Shown: positions 31,416 through 40,334 of the stretch, piece after piece
Layout of the letters: each line of letters starts with the position of its first letter
Numbering within the stretch: the first letter of the stretch is position 1
Assembly: GCA_016124755.1 (NCBI GenBank)
Contig: WGNA01000006.1
Location: 1 to 64,000 of the forward strand
Direction of reading: 5' to 3'
From: Bacteroidota bacterium
Lineage (GTDB): Bacteria > Bacteroidota > Bacteroidia > NS11-12g > UBA9320
Length of the DNA: 64,000 nt
Program-made: the position numbers and the translations under genes
The notes under the pieces: generated by a model
What the model saw: only the letters and a program-made list of their open reading frames with translations
What the model was told of the DNA's origin: nothing
Databases searched by the model: none

Positions 31416-31612
31416 TGCTTCTCGAAACAGCCGATGCACACAGTCAGTCTTTCAGAATTATTCTGATCGCTTCCGAAATTATTATTCCACTGATCGTATT
31501 CATCGGAGCCTATCTTATTTTTAAACCGGTATTCGACAAACAGGAAAAGGAACGATTGGCCAAAGAAGAGGAGCAACGAAAAATAACAGAGCAGGAGAGA
31601 GGGGAAGGGTAA
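31412..31612 (+). CDS. Small one-helix membrane protein of unknown function
   Basis: A 66-aa protein whose start overlaps the preceding small gene (ATGA). One membrane helix lies at ~18-40, and a charged Glu/Lys/Arg-rich tail (DKQEKERLAKEEEQRKITEQ) probably forms a cytoplasmic helix. The last codons and the stop lie at the edge of the hexamer repeat, so the tail may derive in part from repeat sequence. I know no family for it; the tight linkage suggests a second accessory protein of the transporter. Confidence 0.6.
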   Translation: MMLLETADAHSQSFRIILIASEIIIPLIVFIGAYLIFKPVFDKQEKERLAKEEEQRKITEQERGEG

Positions 31613-32035
31613 CAGTAACGGTAACTGTAACTGTAACAGTAACGGTCCGCCTTCGCTAAAGCTACGGCGGATAAAAGAGCATTGAATTCTGAGTGGAACG
31701 AAGAATCCCCTCAACCTTCATCATACAATCGAAACTGTCCGTAGCGTCCCCGCTAAGGACTTAATTCTTTTCATTGTTTTCATTCATTTCATTTTAGAAA
31801 TAGTTGCCAAAGTCGGTAGCGAGGACGCTACCTACAGGTTCCGGTTTTTACTTAGATTCCGTTTATCCAATAAATTCTGAGTGCAGCGAAGAATCTCTGT
31901 TCACCAAAAAGAATGACCGTCTTCGTGAGCGAAGCGAACGAACCCAAGGAAACGGTAACTGTAACTGTAACTGTAACTGTAACTGTAACTGTAACTGTAA
32001 CTGTCCGCCTTCGCTATGGCTACGGCGGATGAAAG
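31608..32035 (+). repeat. Composite hexamer repeat, copy B (non-coding)
   Basis: About 430 bp with no credible gene. In order: hexamer tract 31608-31645; hairpin 31646-31671 (TCCGCC..GGCGGA); AATTCTGAGTGGAACGAAGA at 31685; two more small inverted repeats near 31737-31760 and 31816-31833 (GGTAGCG..CGCTACC); core 31873-31950, matching 44-121 of the first copy; a tract of eight perfect GTAACT units at 31955-32002; and a second TCCGCC hairpin at 32004-32029. It starts at the stop codon of the small membrane protein gene, as the first copy does at its upstream gene. Confidence 0.87.
31955..32002 (+). repeat. (GTAACT)8 perfect tandem hexamer
   Basis: Eight uninterrupted GTAACT units. Shorter, degenerate versions of the same unit occur at 11-34, 159-192, 31608-31645, 39580-39605 and 39651-39693. 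Confidence 0.95.
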
Positions 32036-32060: not shown

Positions 32061-32834
32061 TCAGACATCATCGCTATCCAGAGGAATGGGCTCGCCGGTG
32101 AAAATCTCGTTTTCAACCCAATCCACGAAATCCAGTTTCTTCAATTGTTTATTGATCCGGATAATTTCGCTCACTGTGCCAAATGGAATTTTTACGCTCG
32201 AAAAGATCAATGTGTCGTAATAATTAACATTCGGTCGATCCCGGTTTTGCGAATCCATTAAACCGAGTTCGGTAAGTTGTTTAATCTCTTCAAGCGTAGG
32301 TCGTCTGGAGTAATAAATAGTGAAATAATTACTTAAACCACCCGCGAATTCTCCTCTCACAAACGATGCGGAAACGCGGTATTTTTTCATCCAGTTCTCT
32401 ACGGAATCTGTGGGAACGTAAATCGTATTCAACCAGGGAACGGCAGGCAGAATTGAGTGATCAAGTTTAAAAAGATAATCGTGAAAGGAAACCGGTTTAA
32501 AACTCGAATCTGCACGTCGTTCGGTCCAGACCATTTCATTTATACAGAAGTGGATTTGTATTTTTTTCCTATTCCTGATCAGCAGTTCAGCTTTTTCCCA
32601 TTTAACCTTTGGTGAATTTTTAGTTTTTTGAATTTCTACCTTGTTATTAATTACAGAATCAATTGTTTTTATCGGTGTGCTTGTGTCGGTTTGAAAGGCT
32701 ATATCACCAGAATCAGAAATTGTTTTTTCAGAATCAGAATTCACGGTGCTGCTATCAGACGGACTTCCACACGACAAAAGTGTGGCAGCATAAAAAAGAA
32801 AAATCAACCAGAAAAGAATAAATTTTTGGTTCAT
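32061..32834 (-). CDS. Lipoprotein of unknown function
   Basis: Protein of 257 aa. I chose ATG 32834 (4 bp after the upstream stop) over an in-frame GTG at 32849. The N-terminus is a signal sequence with lipobox LLSC (Cys22), then a Ser/Asp-rich linker to ~residue 75. The remaining ~180 residues show no motif I recognise. It is the third gene of an operon with an alpha-2-macroglobulin-like protein and an outer-membrane barrel, so an outer-membrane-attached partner of those is plausible. Confidence 0.75.
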   Translation of the reverse strand: MNQKFILFWLIFLFYAATLLSCGSPSDSSTVNSDSEKTISDSGDIAFQTDTSTPIKTIDSVINNKVEIQKTKNSPKVKWEKAELLIRNRKKIQIHFCINEMVWTERRADSSFKPVSFHDYLFKLDHSILPAVPWLNTIYVPTDSVENWMKKYRVSASFVRGEFAGGLSNYFTIYYSRRPTLEEIKQLTELGLMDSQNRDRPNVNYYDTLIFSSVKIPFGTVSEIIRINKQLKKLDFVDWVENEIFTGEPIPLDSDDV

Positions 32835-32838
32835 TATT

Positions 32839-34662
32839 CTAATAATCACTCCTTTTAAAATACCACGAGATTCGTGTATAAAAGCGGGCCGGCATCACCT
32901 GACGGAAAGCGGCCTGCTGAAATTGAACCAATGCCGAAGCCGGTTGATTTCCGTAATTCATCAAATTCGTTACACCCAAAGTGAAATAGAGAAGTGGTGA
33001 ACCATAATACGACTTAGAATAATTTACGGTAAGGTACATATCGCTGGTGATTCCCGCCTTTTGTTTTTGTAATTCAGATCCTGCAACAATCGGTAAATCG
33101 TATCCGGAAATATATCCCAATGAAATATTGGGTTGAATTTTTATGTAACTGTGAAAGCGAACAATATATCGGGAATAATTATACCACGCATTCGGATTCG
33201 CTGAGGAAAAATTAAGCATCACATTATGCTGCGGGACAAACATTCCCACATTTCGGTTGTCCGTTTTTGAAAAAGTATAATGAACGGATGTATGAAATTT
33301 ATTGGTTCGGAAAAAATTATCAATTGAAACGGTTGCCTGGGTTAGTGAATTAAAAGACCTGATTAACGCTCCGCCCTCGCCACCTTTTGATGTAAGTAAT
33401 AGTTTGTTGAATGAGGTTTGATTGCCTGCCACCACAGAAATAGTTTTCTCCCGGTAAAATGTCCACTGACCGTGAAACCAGAAATTCCGATACAATTCCG
33501 GTTGATTAAATTGATAATTCAGATTTCGCAATCCGGATCGTAAGTATTGCGGTATTACTTGTGAGATAAAAGCTGTTTGTGAAGTAATACCGGCTCCTGC
33601 AGAACACTTGAGTTTTGAATTTTTGGTGTGGAAATACGTCTTAATAAACGGCAAATAATCAAACCCTGACTGATCACCGTTTCGAATCCGGAAGGTGTGT
33701 TGGTAAATTAAATTCAACCGGCGGTTCTTACCAAAAAAAGAATATTCCTGTACAAAACCGAAATTCTGATACAATTGAAATAATTCGGCGGATTGGTATA
33801 AATCTTTGAATTGATTAAACTGTGCGAATACTTTATTCTGAATCGAAAAATACTGTCGCGTAAACGTTAAATTGGAGTTCAGGTTTAATTGGCGATCATT
33901 GAGTTTGTCATTAAAAACGGCATTCTGATCTCCGTTAAGAATTAAAATATTGGCCTCGCTAATCCATTTAATATTCGCCGAAACGTTTTTCGTAAAAGTT
34001 AATGAAGAGTTAAACAGATTTTGATTTCCGGTACTGTTGTATAAAGGAGTTCCACCCGACGAAACATATTTTTCATTCCGGTGGTTGCCTAACCAGCCGG
34101 CACGTAAATCAATCCGGCCGGCTTCACGGTTGTTCTTTATCCAGTAATCACCAACCGTAATGTATGCGTTGCCATTTTTCCAGGCGTTTTCACTGGAATA
34201 ATTCGAACGGTTTGATTTTAAATTCCAGATTTCTCCAGCGGCAAATGCAGATAAGTTCAGATGGTGATTTTTGAAAGACTTATTTTGATAATATTTAATT
34301 TCAAAATTTAACCAGTCTTTGCAATTGGAAGTAAGACTCGTATTCATATCTCCGTAACCCGGCTGATACGAATTGGTGGTAATGGTTTGCAGTCCGCTTT
34401 CAATGTTGAGATACGGAATACCACCTCTTTGAACCGACATACCCTGTGTTATTCCCTGATTTATCTCGGATTGCAGAACTAAAAGTTTCGCCGGGAAATT
34501 GGATATCAGCGGTGTTTGCCCCGACCTGATATTATTGCTCATTTCAAAGGATGTCAATCCATATTTTAATCCCGGATTTCCTCCAAAATTCTGAGCAGAT
34601 AATTTTAGCTGAAATCCCAATAGAACTATCCAGAAGAAAAAGCTATTCATTCGAATTTTCAT
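32839..34662 (-). CDS. Outer-membrane beta-barrel protein (TonB-receptor-like C-terminus)
   Basis: Protein of 607 aa with a signal peptide (~1-23, ending LSAQ). The sequence is dominated by alternating aromatic/polar strands typical of a large outer-membrane barrel. It ends with an aromatic C-terminus (ARFYTRISWYFKRSDY) as TonB-dependent receptor barrels do. No plug domain or TonB box is visible, so it may be a plugless barrel or a relative of such receptors. It follows the alpha-2-macroglobulin-like gene with a 3-bp gap. Confidence 0.75.
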   Translation of the reverse strand: MKIRMNSFFFWIVLLGFQLKLSAQNFGGNPGLKYGLTSFEMSNNIRSGQTPLISNFPAKLLVLQSEINQGITQGMSVQRGGIPYLNIESGLQTITTNSYQPGYGDMNTSLTSNCKDWLNFEIKYYQNKSFKNHHLNLSAFAAGEIWNLKSNRSNYSSENAWKNGNAYITVGDYWIKNNREAGRIDLRAGWLGNHRNEKYVSSGGTPLYNSTGNQNLFNSSLTFTKNVSANIKWISEANILILNGDQNAVFNDKLNDRQLNLNSNLTFTRQYFSIQNKVFAQFNQFKDLYQSAELFQLYQNFGFVQEYSFFGKNRRLNLIYQHTFRIRNGDQSGFDYLPFIKTYFHTKNSKLKCSAGAGITSQTAFISQVIPQYLRSGLRNLNYQFNQPELYRNFWFHGQWTFYREKTISVVAGNQTSFNKLLLTSKGGEGGALIRSFNSLTQATVSIDNFFRTNKFHTSVHYTFSKTDNRNVGMFVPQHNVMLNFSSANPNAWYNYSRYIVRFHSYIKIQPNISLGYISGYDLPIVAGSELQKQKAGITSDMYLTVNYSKSYYGSPLLYFTLGVTNLMNYGNQPASALVQFQQAAFRQVMPARFYTRISWYFKRSDY

Positions 34663-34665
34663 GGA

Positions 34666-37600
34666 TCAGTTATTAGAATTACGAATGCTCACAACCACCG
34701 GTGAAACAGAGCTTTTTATTTCCGGTGTATAATATTGATACACATAATTTTCTTCGGTGTGGTAGGTCCCGCAGACCTGAGGTGTGAGTGCCAGTTGAAT
34801 CGTTTTCTTTTCGTTCGGCCCCATTTCCAGCATGTACAGAACTAATTCGTTTTCGGAACTTTCGTAATAGTCAATAATTTTTTCATCTGTGAGATATTTC
34901 AATTCTTCTAATGAATAATTTAATCCTCCTGCAAAGTGTAAAACCGCCACAATCTGAGGTTTTCCTTTATCGGTTTTATTTTCAATTTCAATAGTCGCCG
35001 TGGTGGATTCACCAAGCTGTAATGACGTGTCGGAATAATTCACTTTTAATGCAAGTTCGGGGTGTTCCGTCTTATCATTTTCTTCATACCAATGCAATTC
35101 AAAATCAATAAATCGTTCCGGATCCGAATTAATTAATTCAAGGGTGTTTTTACCTTTTTTAAATAAGTCGCTGCTCATGATGGAAATATATTCTGAGCGG
35201 TTGCGAAAATCGATAGTTGTCTGTACGACTCCGTTAATCAGCATTTTTACCTCCGGAATTCCGGTTCCTGAGCGGTAATTAGTGAGATGATAACTCAACG
35301 CCTCCATGGTAAGTGCTGTAGATTGAGTGGTGCCGAAGCCGCTATAGTTTGAGTTTTTCATCATTTCAGTCATAAGTCTGGATAAGGATGATGAGTAGTT
35401 GTGATAATTTTTTAGCCTGTAACCGAGAATGTACGTCAGAGCAAAACATTCTTGCTTTAATGAATTCCCGTAACTGTACATAACCGATATGCCGGCAGTA
35501 ACGCTCTGAAAATTTTGTTTTTCGTAAGATGCAATGAGCTTATTAAATACGGTATTGGCTTTTTCGGTTTCGCCAATGTTATAATAAATATTTCCGAGAA
35601 GACTGAGTTTGTACGCATCAAAATTCTGATCAACATCGCGTTCAATTGCACGCAACTGATCCTTGTCAATCGGTTCGCCGATGAGAGAAAGCACATAGGT
35701 GATATAGGCATTATTAACTTCATAGGTGGCAGAAGAGAATCCGTATTTGCCTGAATGAAACATATATCCTCCGTTTTTATCTCGCCGGCCGGACAGCCAC
35801 TTTACGGAACGTCGAACCAGACTTTCATCGACGGGAATTCCCACTTGTTTCATGAGATAAAACTGGTATAATCCGTATGCTGTCAGCGTCTCATGCGGAG
35901 GTGTTCTTCCATACCATTCAAATCCGCCCTCCGAAGTTTCATAAGCCGCGAGTTTGTCGTAACCATGCGCAAGAACCTGCCGGAGCTGGTTGATTTCATT
36001 TGCATTATCATTCGGATTTTCGAGCAGAATCTTCAACGCCAGAATATTGGGATAATTGGAAGAAGAAACCTGTTCGAAACACCCATGCGGTTCCCGGATC
36101 ATTTTTTTCGCCGTATTGTAAGCGATGTCCCGGAAGTCATTCATCAGGTTTAACTTCAGATACATTTTTTCGGAGACAACTGTCTGTAATTCAAAATCGA
36201 TTTTGTGATTTCCCTTTCCGCTAATTGTTTTCACAACTTTGTGGCCTCTCGGAATTATCTGAATTGAACGGTTTACGACAGAATTTGAAAATGAATTTTG
36301 GGGAATGCTGTTCGCCGAAACATAAGCTCCAATAGTTCGGTTTGTATCGGTTGCGGTATAATTAAATTGAAGTTTATAAGGCTCACCGGGCAAAACCTTA
36401 ACTTCTTTTTGATGTCTCATTTTATCTATTCCCCAATAAAGCGTTACCCGAATTGCTGTATCGGCTTTATTATTAATGATGGATTCCAGTTTTATTTCAT
36501 CACCAAAGGTTACGGATGTTGGAGCCTTAAAAGAAATAGAGATAACATTACCCGTTTCAAAAGAAGTGGAAGCGTTAAACGGAATTCCATTTTCACTGAT
36601 GCCTTCACAGAAAACAGTGTATCCGGTATTCTTATTTGATGTGCGAAACTGGCCGGCAATTCCGGGATTGCTAATACTTTGAATCGGCGCCCAATACAAT
36701 GTGTTGGAATTGAGTTGAAGGGCATTGTTGAACATCAAAGGCTGACCGGTTCGGGTTGGATAGGCATAAACATAAAAAGGTCGGGTGTATGAATTATAGA
36801 AGGATACATCTGCCGGATACGAAACATCATTCGCAATTCCTCCCCAGTAATACCAGTAACCGATTCTTTGAACACTCGATAAACTCGTAACCTGATATGA
36901 GGAAATTGAACGGGATAATGATTCTATCGCGGGAGAGGTGTAACTGGCAGAGTTCTCAGTTCTGTCTATCGCATAATCGTATTTATAAACCGGACTGATT
37001 AAAGAGATTCGGGTTGAACGATTGGCAGAATTTTCATTTACGGGAGCCTCTTCGTTGTCGACAAGTGAAAGAGGTGATCCGGCAATAAAATCATTGGAAA
37101 TAAACATGGGGTTAGCGTTTATTTTCTCCTCAACTTTTTCGAGCCCTTTTTTAATAATTAGTGTAAATCCGTTTTCGACCCAGGATGCGGGAATCATGGA
37201 AAAGCGGTACATGCCGTTCGAATCGGTTTCCACTTCCGCAGATGTATTTTTTATGTTAACTGAAGCGCCTTTTACCGGCAATTGATAATTCTGATAATCG
37301 TACACATGTCCGTAGAAATTGGCAACTCCCCGGTAGTAAAAGACATCCTTTCGCTGATCAGGTTTTCCGGTTTCTGGATTTCTGCGCCAGTGGGTTCGCT
37401 CCGTGGTTAACACCAAATCAAGTGCATCAGAAGCATGTTCATTTTCCGGATCAAAATAATATTGGGGTTCTTCGATTTCGGAACTGAATTCCACTCCGAG
37501 ATACATCCACGAAACCATGTTGTGGGAGCGGTCTTTAATCTGATTCAAAAATTGATTTTCGACTACGTGTGTAGTAAAGTTCAACGATTTACTCTGGTCG

Positions 37601-38913
37601 GTATCCCAGTTTAATGAGTAGTTGGTATAACGATTAACATCAATCATACTATCGGTTTTTACCGCCACCTTTAAGGATTTTCGCACAATCATAAAGAGTC
37701 GGTGTGCGAGTGTTTTTCCGTTCACATCCGAAACCCAGACAGAGACAATTCCTTCGATTAACTGATCTGAAGGAATTTCAATCGTTTCGGCAGGAGTTAC
37801 CGACATGAGCTTTTTAAGCACTCCGTTTACATCCGAGATTACAATGTTCTTTTTGCGGTTATCGCCTTTAATGCCGAACGCAACTTTTCCATTTCTTTCC
37901 GACTTGGTAATGATGAAACCCTTTTCCGTTGCTGCCGGTAAATCAAGCGTTTGATAATCGTCGCCGGGTGCACAGCGGTAAAACACTTTGTAGGTTTTAC
38001 CGGCTTCGGGTGTAACCTGTACCTTCGACATTCCCTTATAAATGGTTTTAAAATTTACCGGAACGTTTTTGCCATCGCCGGAAGAAACAAATCCTTCGAC
38101 GTTAATTGGGCGATCGTTTACATCCAGCGTTTGCAGAACCAGTTCGTTCTCAACTCCGGCCAACAAAAATTCACTACCGGATTTGTTAAAAATCTTAGCC
38201 CTTATATCCGGACTCTTAATTGGAATTCTCGCGGTTTGAGTTTCTGTATTTCCCTGAAAAGTGGCGCTGTATTCAAAATAACAGGTTGAAGTTTCTTCCG
38301 GATTAATCGCAAATACCGGATGTACCATTCCTTTCGAATCCGTTTTTAATTCAATCTGGTTGATCACATTTCCATTTGATTTTAGTCGCACCGAAACGGC
38401 TAATCCGGGAATCGGTTTGTTATCGGTTTTACGAAATGTGGCTTTGCCGGTAACTTCCTCACCCGGACTATAATTTTCTTTTTCAAATTCAGCATTAATG
38501 AAAAAACTCCTGCTGACGAAGCTTTGAACATAAATTTTCTTTTCAAAAAAGTCGCGCTTCACCGGGTTGAGTTGCCAGGAAGTATAACCTCTCAGCGTAT
38601 AAACACCACCTGTTTTGGGTAGGGTTAATCTTCCGCCACCTCTGCCGTTGTTACAAAAAATACGAACCGAATCCACAATCTGATTTCGCGCATCGAGGAG
38701 TTCGGCTTTCAGTTGAACAACTTCCGTAATAAGTGCATTCTGATCGTTGGTAACATACGCGCAGAAGTACATGTTTTCGGAAGGATTATAGAGATACCGG
38801 TCTGTAACTAGAAAGACTTTTTCCATATCCACCGGTTGTTGACCACGGGATTGAAAAGCGTTTAAAACTAAAAAGGAGAAAAATAGAAAAGGCAGGGTTC
38901 GGAAGACTGACAT
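34666..38913 (-). CDS. Alpha-2-macroglobulin-like protein with intact thioester motif
   Basis: Exported protein of 1415 aa with a signal peptide (~1-24) and no lipobox. The N-terminus (~30-150) resembles the MG2-type domain of Bacteroidota proteins (FLVTDRYLYNPSENMYF). A carboxypeptidase-regulatory-like domain lies at ~555-610 (KGASVNIKNTSAEVETDSNG). A Ser/Tyr-rich stretch at ~640-760 sits near where the bait region occurs in A2M proteins. The thioester motif CFEQ (Cys945-Gln948, in PHGCFEQVSSSNYPN) starts an alpha-helical thioester domain (~945-1240), followed by the receptor-binding-like C-terminus. Such proteins trap attacking proteases covalently. It is first in an operon with a barrel and a lipoprotein. 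Confidence 0.9.
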   Translation of the reverse strand: MSVFRTLPFLFFSFLVLNAFQSRGQQPVDMEKVFLVTDRYLYNPSENMYFCAYVTNDQNALITEVVQLKAELLDARNQIVDSVRIFCNNGRGGGRLTLPKTGGVYTLRGYTSWQLNPVKRDFFEKKIYVQSFVSRSFFINAEFEKENYSPGEEVTGKATFRKTDNKPIPGLAVSVRLKSNGNVINQIELKTDSKGMVHPVFAINPEETSTCYFEYSATFQGNTETQTARIPIKSPDIRAKIFNKSGSEFLLAGVENELVLQTLDVNDRPINVEGFVSSGDGKNVPVNFKTIYKGMSKVQVTPEAGKTYKVFYRCAPGDDYQTLDLPAATEKGFIITKSERNGKVAFGIKGDNRKKNIVISDVNGVLKKLMSVTPAETIEIPSDQLIEGIVSVWVSDVNGKTLAHRLFMIVRKSLKVAVKTDSMIDVNRYTNYSLNWDTDQSKSLNFTTHVVENQFLNQIKDRSHNMVSWMYLGVEFSSEIEEPQYYFDPENEHASDALDLVLTTERTHWRRNPETGKPDQRKDVFYYRGVANFYGHVYDYQNYQLPVKGASVNIKNTSAEVETDSNGMYRFSMIPASWVENGFTLIIKKGLEKVEEKINANPMFISNDFIAGSPLSLVDNEEAPVNENSANRSTRISLISPVYKYDYAIDRTENSASYTSPAIESLSRSISSYQVTSLSSVQRIGYWYYWGGIANDVSYPADVSFYNSYTRPFYVYAYPTRTGQPLMFNNALQLNSNTLYWAPIQSISNPGIAGQFRTSNKNTGYTVFCEGISENGIPFNASTSFETGNVISISFKAPTSVTFGDEIKLESIINNKADTAIRVTLYWGIDKMRHQKEVKVLPGEPYKLQFNYTATDTNRTIGAYVSANSIPQNSFSNSVVNRSIQIIPRGHKVVKTISGKGNHKIDFELQTVVSEKMYLKLNLMNDFRDIAYNTAKKMIREPHGCFEQVSSSNYPNILALKILLENPNDNANEINQLRQVLAHGYDKLAAYETSEGGFEWYGRTPPHETLTAYGLYQFYLMKQVGIPVDESLVRRSVKWLSGRRDKNGGYMFHSGKYGFSSATYEVNNAYITYVLSLIGEPIDKDQLRAIERDVDQNFDAYKLSLLGNIYYNIGETEKANTVFNKLIASYEKQNFQSVTAGISVMYSYGNSLKQECFALTYILGYRLKNYHNYSSSLSRLMTEMMKNSNYSGFGTTQSTALTMEALSYHLTNYRSGTGIPEVKMLINGVVQTTIDFRNRSEYISIMSSDLFKKGKNTLELINSDPERFIDFELHWYEENDKTEHPELALKVNYSDTSLQLGESTTATIEIENKTDKGKPQIVAVLHFAGGLNYSLEELKYLTDEKIIDYYESSENELVLYMLEMGPNEKKTIQLALTPQVCGTYHTEENYVYQYYTPEIKSSVSPVVVSIRNSNN

Positions 38914-39025: not shown

Positions 39026-39481
39026 TCAATCTGTATCGAGGGCGAATTTTAAATCGCGAACCAAAAGTCCTGCGGGTTTGGAGCCTTCGAGTCTCAGATG
39101 AACATGGTTGGTTCCGGCTTTCAAAACCAGTAAAGTCGGGTATTCATTAACAGAATATTGAGCGGCAAACTTTTTACTCTCAGCGGAATCAGCATCGAGT
39201 TTTACGACAATAAAATTCTTTTCAATCAGATGAATCAAAGCCGTATCGTGAAATGTTTTTTTCTCCATCTCGCGACAGGGTCTGCACCATGATGCGTAAA
39301 AATCCAGCAGAATGTGCTTGTTGGTTTGTGTTGATAAAGCTATTGCCGAATCCACCGATCCGTAAAACAGGTGAATTTCTTCTCCCTGCTGAGCCTTCGC
39401 CTGATTGAGTGATAAAGTAAGTAATAGAAAACCAACCAGCAGATTACTGATCAGATTGTGTGCTTTTGTCCGGTTGATCAT
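39026..39481 (-). CDS. Exported thioredoxin-like protein (DsbD C-domain type)
   Basis: Protein of 151 aa with a signal peptide (~1-31, ending KAQ). The thioredoxin fold has the active site FYASWCRPC (Cys66, Cys69) followed by REMEKKTFHD and a cis-Pro segment VNEYPTLLVL. It resembles the periplasmic thioredoxin domains of DsbD-like proteins. The start overlaps the 3' end of lspA by 38 bp because lspA carries a repeat-derived extension. Confidence 0.9.
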   Translation of the reverse strand: MINRTKAHNLISNLLVGFLLLTLSLNQAKAQQGEEIHLFYGSVDSAIALSTQTNKHILLDFYASWCRPCREMEKKTFHDTALIHLIEKNFIVVKLDADSAESKKFAAQYSVNEYPTLLVLKAGTNHVHLRLEGSKPAGLLVRDLKFALDTD

Positions 39482-40334
39482 CGTTTTCAGTTTTCTCCTC
39501 CGGCAAGATAGAACTTTCTGCCGAGTCCGCTGAACTCTGGGCCTCTGTTTCTACATCAGGTTCCGTTTCCGTTACTGTTTCTGTTTCTGTTACAGTTACA
39601 GTTTCCTTCTCATCGCTCTCCCGCTCTTCCGCTCTCTGCTCTTCCCCAACGGTTCCCGTTACAGTTACAGTTTCCGTTTCCGTTTCCGTTTCCGCTCCCC
39701 CATCCATCTGAAACAAATCTCTCTTAAACAGCAGAATAGTAAAAACCCCAACACTGATAGAGGCATCTGCAAGATTGAATACCGGCCGGAAGAAAATGAA
39801 TTCACGACCGCCTAATTTGGGTACCCAGCTCGGATAATAACTTTCGATCAAAGGGAAATACAGCATATCGACAACTTTACCCCGGAAATACCCGGCGTAT
39901 CCGTTACCATTAGCCCATTCGGCGGTTTGATAAAACTGGCTCGCAGTAAACCATTGTCCGTAAAATACACTGTCGATAATGTTACCCATTGCGCCGGCAA
40001 GTATGAGGGAAAGCAAAACTGTAGTGAGAACACTGGCGTGTTTTCGGATTTGTATCGATAAATAATAAATGATGCCTGCAACCGCCACTAAACGAAAAGC
40101 AGTGAGGGCAATTTTTCCAGCCTGACCAGCGAATTCGAATCCGAATGCCATTCCGTTATTTTCGGTAAAGTGAAGAATAAACCAGTTGCCGGCCATGTGA
40201 ATATTCTCGCCAAGAGACATGTGGGTTTTCACCCAAAACTTGAGCATTTGATCGGCTGCGAGAACAGCAATCACAACGGCTACACTGAGGAAAGCGAGCT
40301 GTCTGATTTTTTTATTGGATCGGTCTGGGTTCAA
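39444..40334 (-). CDS. lspA: Lipoprotein signal peptidase (signal peptidase II) with repeat-derived tail
   Basis: Inner-membrane aspartyl protease of 296 aa that removes signal peptides from prolipoproteins. Catalytic Asp121 (GNIIDSVFYG) and Asp190 (PVFNLADASISVG) are present, with the ENNGMAFG motif and four membrane helices. The family normally ends near residue ~212. From ~214 a tail of 83 residues follows, rich in Glu/Thr/Val (TETETETVTVTGTV) and encoded by the GTTACA-type hexamers seen elsewhere as non-coding repeats. It is in an operon with ileS and the dksA-like gene; its tail overlaps the next gene. Confidence 0.93.
   Translation of the reverse strand: MNPDRSNKKIRQLAFLSVAVVIAVLAADQMLKFWVKTHMSLGENIHMAGNWFILHFTENNGMAFGFEFAGQAGKIALTAFRLVAVAGIIYYLSIQIRKHASVLTTVLLSLILAGAMGNIIDSVFYGQWFTASQFYQTAEWANGNGYAGYFRGKVVDMLYFPLIESYYPSWVPKLGGREFIFFRPVFNLADASISVGVFTILLFKRDLFQMDGGAETETETETVTVTGTVGEEQRAEERESDEKETVTVTETETVTETEPDVETEAQSSADSAESSILPEEKTENDDQPDKSTQSDQ
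39561..39693 (-). repeat. Hexamer repeat inside the 3' end of lspA
   Basis: Two degenerate hexamer tracts (GTTACA/GTTTCC units) at about 39561-39605 and 39651-39693 flank a pyrimidine-rich spacer (CGCTCTCCCGCTCTTCC). The layout matches the two intergenic copies. Here it is read in frame as Thr-Val and Thr-Glu pairs. Confidence 0.8.

Follow-up and report, generated by a model that had tools for sequence, protein, structure and literature searches.

Alpha-2-macroglobulins (A2Ms) are textbook baited traps, and TonB-dependent transporters (TBDTs) are textbook single-chain machines in which barrel and plug are one protein. The window analyzed here, a stretch of 64,000 nucleotides from a Bacteroidota genome, places an A2M gene a few base pairs from the gene of an outer-membrane barrel, raising the question of whether the trap and the barrel work together.

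An A2M gene beside an outer-membrane barrel

The features of the locus are collected in Table 1. The A2M has a plain Sec signal peptide and no lipobox. Among solved structures, CD109 and human A2M are nearest to it in sequence, and its sequence profile also matches E. coli YfhM. The thioester motif GCFEQ is invariant in five of five aligned orthologues, and the thioester motif is kept in nearly all wider relatives. The A2M domain, PF00207, was matched in three of the five aligned orthologues; for A2M_recep the count is four of five aligned members, with a best match of 5e-8 among orthologues. These results uphold the preliminary description of an exported 1415-aa A2M with an intact CFEQ thioester. 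The same description had likened the N-terminal MG2 and carboxypeptidase-regulatory domains to Bacteroidota receptor proteins, and the likeness holds for ~905-aa MG2-CarbopepD-Plug proteins and for the N-terminal extension (NTE) of SusC, which is PF13715 (PMC7782687). By domain family, the CarboxypepD_reg-like domain of the window A2M is the putative counterpart of that extension.

Traits of ECAM-type A2Ms are absent from the window A2M, which has neither a lipobox or inner-membrane anchor nor a PbpC neighbor; the genes around it encode the barrel, a lipoprotein, thioredoxin and lspA. The same genome also encodes a classical 1831-aa A2M, whose N-terminus, LLTSFLITVLACNRS, reads as that of a lipoprotein. 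A comparison of the bait-position region of the window A2M with a plug profile found no plug (hhalign, probability 0.2%), and an LxEVVV-type TonB box was not found in its linker or in the linkers of its orthologues. Scans for promoters and terminators performed no better than on shuffles.

Three further features of the window were recorded. Short repeats of type GTAACTGTAACT lie between genes at 31610-31655 and 31950-32010. The product of lspA (signal peptidase II, 39444-40334) carries E/T/V repeats in a long C-terminal tail that looks like a GTAACTGTAACT-type repeat read as protein. An ORF of 1475 aa at 58839-63266 matches nothing in Pfam at E ≤ 1e-4.

Table 1. Positions of the A2M, barrel and lipoprotein features in the window
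Feature	Position	Strand	Extent	Basis and remarks
Lipoprotein, family not recognized	32061-32834	minus	257 aa	ATG start; lipobox LLSC; 4 bp after barrel
TBDT-type outer-membrane barrel	32839-34662	minus	607 aa	starts 3 bp after A2M stop
Beta-strand-rich region of barrel, about 21-22 strands	32857-34320	minus	barrel residues ~115-602	AF2 models, pLDDT 49 and 55
A2M-family protein	34666-38913	minus	1415 aa	ORF, Pfam, solved-structure relatives
Receptor-binding (C-terminal macroglobulin) domain	34714-34926	minus	A2M residues 1330-1400	Pfam A2M_recep 0.0072
Thioester domain	35287-36156	minus	A2M residues ~920-1209	Pfam TED_complement 8.7e-13; alignment with CD109 and human A2M
Thioester motif GCFEQ	36070-36084	minus	A2M residues 944-948	CXEQ intact
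A2M domain PF00207	36442-36636	minus	A2M residues 760-824	Pfam 0.027, weak in the window member
Bait-position linker (putative)	36706-37113	minus	A2M residues ~601-736	alignment; TonB box and plug here in relatives
CarboxypepD_reg-like domain	37183-37311	minus	A2M residues 535-577	Pfam 2.2e-5, under the Pfam cut-off
MG2 domain	38611-38820	minus	A2M residues 32-101	Pfam PF01835 1.7e-12

The barrel and the conserved gene pair

Family searches with Pfam and NCBIfam gave no family above chance for the window barrel. The Pfam Plug domain was not found in it at E ≤ 1, or in its orthologues at E ≤ 10, and no TonB box was recognized in it by reading. The fold was approached with two AlphaFold models. 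The first, built from an alignment of the six A2M-linked barrels only, with no TBDT sequences, is poor (pLDDT 49) and shows a run of about 21 strands starting at residue 115; all 50 Foldseek matches listed for it are TBDTs, the best being FepA at 4e-7. The second, whose alignment contained TBDT rows and which was hence partly guided by them, has a pLDDT of 55 and a pTM of 0.58; it superimposes on BtuB1 with a Z of 19.5 over 439 residues (rmsd 4.0), and Foldseek matched it to BtuB at 1e-11.

Profile comparisons pointed in the same direction. The profile of the window-family barrels aligns with that of the Saprospiraceae barrels plus TBDTs at an hhalign probability of 92% (E 6e-7), collinearly to the C-terminal strands, and with the Saprospiraceae barrels without TBDTs at 82% (E 1e-5); a profile of the four closer orthologous barrels, omitting those of the window and L016, did not reach significance. 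We regard the link by profile as moderate. Length and strand order leave about 90 residues before the strands, and the absence of a plug from the N-terminal ~90-130 residues, which are unmodelled, is a negative result. As judged from these comparisons, the window barrel is of TBDT type and has no plug that could be detected, in agreement with the plugless-looking barrel, 3 bp after the A2M, of the preliminary description.

Co-occurrence of the genes had been named beforehand as the test of a functional unit, and the A2M and barrel pass it. Five further genomes of the family have A2M orthologues, at 29-34% identity, and in all five the gene of an exported 573-595-aa barrel follows with a 4-bp overlap of the A2M stop. 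The barrel is immediately downstream of this A2M in 6/6 family genomes having it, with gaps of -4 to +3 bp, and a barrel profile run over 38 family genomes gave no further matches: barrel and A2M were found only together. These relatives were revealed by profile search and adjacency, a BLAST search with the window barrel having returned no relative in 57 related genomes. The window barrel resembles the others weakly when compared directly: in leave-one-out profile searches it was recovered at 5.7e-5, and the L016 barrel was not significant. The barrels of this family evolve fast. Because the pair recurs in five other genomes with a 4-bp overlap, its adjacency is not a matter of chance, and the conserved module very probably consists of the A2M and a plugless TBDT-type barrel.

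At L017:7906-12133 (genome G017) a frameshift breaks the A2M orthologue into ORFs of 785 and 627 aa beside an intact barrel; the gene is either a pseudogene or an assembly error. The L016 A2M has a plug-like start that was seen by eye only. At L020:3240-11122 (genome G053) a broken-up A2M lies beside a gene that reads as PbpC-like, the classical pairing in decay.

The lipoprotein, which the preliminary description had counted as a third component, fails the co-occurrence test: a search of 107 other genomes of the order turned up no relative (0/107). Pfam gives no match for it at E ≤ 1, which leaves it outside the SusD families searched, and it has nothing in NCBIfam and no significant match among solved structures; a likeness to the protease-propeptide fold, an idea from reading, was dropped. 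An alternative 262-aa form starting at GTG overlaps the barrel gene. In other family members the barrel is followed by genes that are unrelated or run in the opposite direction, and since the relatives lack the lipoprotein, the conserved unit is two genes and the lipoprotein is probably outside it. The three window genes are co-directional with gaps of 3-4 bp, as would suit a complex of A2M, barrel and a surface lipoprotein acting as a SusD-like lid, but the lack of relatives and of Pfam matches, together with the differing genes after the barrel elsewhere, makes such an assembly very unlikely.

Plugs in the bait position of related A2Ms

Bacteroidia were sampled evenly with 395 genomes, of which 81 matched the A2M profile at E ≤ 1e-40; the matches are full-length A2Ms of ~1450-1700 aa and ~905-aa MG2-CarbopepD-Plug proteins that have no thioester domain. 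A single-sequence contig scan with the window A2M gave no matches, and a scan based on an alignment contributed a further 80 loci from named genomes, which were chosen by similarity and are not an even sample. A TonB plug was detected by a local profile in 40 of 99 non-redundant A2Ms, and Pfam confirms it in two of them (2.5e-14 and 5.2e-12). Directly upstream of 38 of these 40, on the same strand and in 26 cases only 2-5 bp away, is a plugless SusC-type barrel of 780-996 aa, which we call class I, whereas none of the 59 plug-less A2Ms has a SusC-type barrel in that place (Fisher 2e-25, a value that overstates the evidence because the rows are related and not independent). The two exceptions are L154, which is cut off by its contig, and L083, which bears a plug and has no neighboring barrel. 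Class I barrels, of which the one at L177:6039-8897 in Aquimarina algiphila is an example, match SusC BT_2264 at 8e-53, with the match starting at the barrel. The local plug profile misses FepA-type plugs, and the absence of plugs from class I barrels was rechecked with Pfam: Plug was absent in ten of ten scanned, most of which keep an N-terminal PF13715 domain, and present in both of the ordinary TBDT controls.

The majority of this family's A2Ms in Bacteroidia have no adjacent barrel. Plug-like stretches are visible by eye in L068 and L075, with no barrel adjoining. The ~905-aa proteins (L084-L093) have no barrel of their own, and no plugless barrel was recognized in the 10 neighborhoods fetched. 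Many plug-less A2Ms precede a small exported protein ending in C-F/Y-x-W/F, often with DPRNPxCPCHK near the N-terminus (L054:9356-9895, L055:9238-9723 and L058:9433-9843; also L060, L061, L065, L072, L078, L081 and L082), possibly a third type of A2M partner.

We take the bait region of human A2M to span about residues 690-728 of the precursor. The region is 39 residues long (PMC13069473). In the family profile, the stretch directly following the plug or linker (..stiYWnP..) begins its alignment with human A2M at residue 731 of the chain, adjoining the bait region, and the plug cassette thus lies in the bait-region position. The window linker falls in the same position by alignment and is a putative bait. 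In plug-bearing A2Ms the cassette runs in the order carboxypeptidase-regulatory domain, LxEVVV motif, plug, which repeats the N-terminal order of SusC: N-terminal extension, TonB box (VDEVVV; PMC7782687), plug. The LxEVVV motif was found in 20 of 40 plug-bearing A2Ms, compared with 8 of 62 plug-less A2M linkers and 0 of 204 equally long control segments.

A different set of barrels accompanies eight Saprospiraceae-type A2Ms, each with a plugless TBDT barrel of ~600 aa downstream; together with the window-family barrels, these are called class II. Decayed plug remnants persist in most of these A2Ms, and six of the eight keep the LxEVVV motif. The Saprospiraceae barrels have matches to ordinary ~740-aa TBDTs in 299 of the 395 Bacteroidia genomes, at E values as low as 1e-78 and confined to the barrel part. 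The class I barrel profile gave no clear match to class II barrels (best 0.0056, 4 bits), and the two classes were probably recruited separately or have diverged beyond recognition. Two sister lineages thus combine an A2M that has a plug or plug remnants in the bait position with an adjoining plugless barrel. The window pair shares such a barrel with the class I module but differs in that the barrel is downstream of the A2M, not upstream, and the bait position has no plug. One Saprospiraceae-type A2M (L064:4715-9682) has a TonB C-terminal domain, PF03544 (4.6e-19), in the bait position, and a trap of this kind may contain its own TonB piece; TonB_C-like stretches are also visible by eye in the L075 and L076 A2Ms.

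To place the window A2M among its relatives we used a tree of 107 thioester-domain regions, with a midpoint root for drawing only. Fifty of the 54 A2Ms without a recognized barrel partner form one branch (SH-aLRT 99), and the barrel-partnered A2Ms of the window family, the Saprospiraceae and class I group together on the other side of the tree. Four rows without a recognized partner fall among the latter (L107, L112, L125 and L151), of which L112 is a near miss with a truncated barrel at a contig end. The simplest account is that the barrel partnership arose once and that the plug was then lost in the window and Saprospiraceae lineages; a change of barrel partner along the way is possible, because neither barrel class recognizes the other by sequence. 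The window A2M has neither plug nor TonB box, and therefore its tie to the split-TBDT module rests on descent and gene order. That relatives carry the missing plug inside the trap, where the bait normally is, suggests that the trap evolved as both the cork and the guard of a pore.

A candidate mechanism and its relation to known systems

On balance we lean, by a little, toward the view that the A2M and barrel form a protease trap docked at the outer membrane and derived from a split TBDT, the plug having been inserted into the A2M bait loop. The domain architecture and the gene linkage are shown by sequence; physical docking, which we infer, is somewhat more likely than not, and the coupling of bait cleavage or TonB pulling to the pore is doubtful. 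The outer-membrane-linked protease trap of the preliminary description is thus retained as the best reading of the locus.

The plug of a TBDT has both of its ends on the periplasmic face. For this reason the plug would seat from below and the ancestral A2M would lie on the periplasmic side, tethered to the outer membrane through its plug in the partner barrel. The trap would then guard the pore, with bait loop and cork as a single module. A protease arriving at the lumen or periplasmic mouth would cut the bait cassette, and the A2M would fire, expose its thioester and capture the protease, much as bait cleavage in classical A2Ms leads to collapse, thioester exposure and capture (PMC4498604). 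The cut, or alternatively TonB pulling, would loosen the seal or reshape it. With no plug, a 22-strand barrel would leak if nothing closed it, and a closing partner or an occluding N-terminus is therefore favored: after loss of the plug in the window lineage, the A2M linker, the N-terminal ~90 residues of the barrel, or both would close or narrow the pore, and the A2M would be docked by contacts other than a plug. A bolder version, which we hold only tentatively and think less likely than not, is a protease-gated outer-membrane channel whose cork is the bait region, so that cleavage or TonB pulling, opening and thioester capture would be one mechanical event; the window pair would then descend from such a channel and have lost the plug, leaving the A2M itself to seal or guard the open barrel.

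The same genes could encode two proteins that never meet, an ordinary soluble periplasmic protease inhibitor and an independent outer-membrane barrel, co-transcribed as envelope-stress genes. Operon order alone is no proof of contact, most of the family's A2Ms elsewhere have no adjacent barrel, and the window A2M lacks plug and TonB box. However, the partner barrels of 38 of the 40 plug-bearing relatives lack the very domain found in the A2M, a pattern hard to account for unless the two proteins touch, and the Saprospiraceae A2Ms retain remnants of the same cassette together with the same kind of partner; we consider independence unlikely. Contact might instead serve transport, with the pair importing or exporting proteins or peptides by a TonB-linked route and the A2M binding or tagging cargo by its thioester, as complement C3 does, or, in a variant, being exported through the barrel to the cell surface. 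SusC-type barrels move large cargo, and the bait positions hold plug or TonB_C domains, not a simple protease-sensitive loop. Secretion of the protease PopC requires the TBDT Oar (PMC6434023). The thioester is kept in all five aligned orthologues, as trapping needs, although tagging would need it too, and the pair has no conserved neighbor that encodes a dedicated cargo. We consider a transporter unlikely.

For the docked trap, the implication of a TBDT plug inside the A2M bait region, at some 40 loci in several Bacteroidota families, is a possible new way of docking A2Ms at the outer membrane. It bears on what bacterial A2Ms protect and on whether a plug needs a covalent link to its barrel, and it suggests that some annotated plug-domain fragments and plugless barrels may be halves of one machine. 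Our literature search, which left subscription journals and bioRxiv aside, found no published description of an A2M linked to TonB, SusC or a split plug, and a prior description is possible.

Among proteins known from annotation only, the Bacteroidota ~905-aa MG2-CarbopepD-Plug proteins share the N-terminal half of the window A2M and a plug without a barrel of their own, but differ from it in having no thioester domain and no adjacent plugless barrel that we recognized. The type II A2M MagD of Pseudomonas is stabilized by its operon partners (PMC5764988); having operon partners is its likeness to the window A2M, whereas MagD has no thioester and no barrel and uses an inner-membrane anchor protein, MagB. 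SusC and other TBDTs (SusCD, BtuBG, RagAB) have the barrel fold that is predicted, at low model confidence, for the window barrel; they differ in that plug and barrel are on two proteins in the window's relatives, that the plug is lost in the window, and that no SusD- or BtuG-type partner was recognized there. The type I bacterial A2Ms, E. coli ECAM/YfhM and Salmonella SaA2M, have the CXEQ thioester, MG and receptor-binding domains in common with the window A2M, but its partner is an outer-membrane barrel rather than PbpC, it has no inner-membrane anchor, and its bait position is taken by a carboxypeptidase-regulatory domain and linker where its relatives carry a plug.
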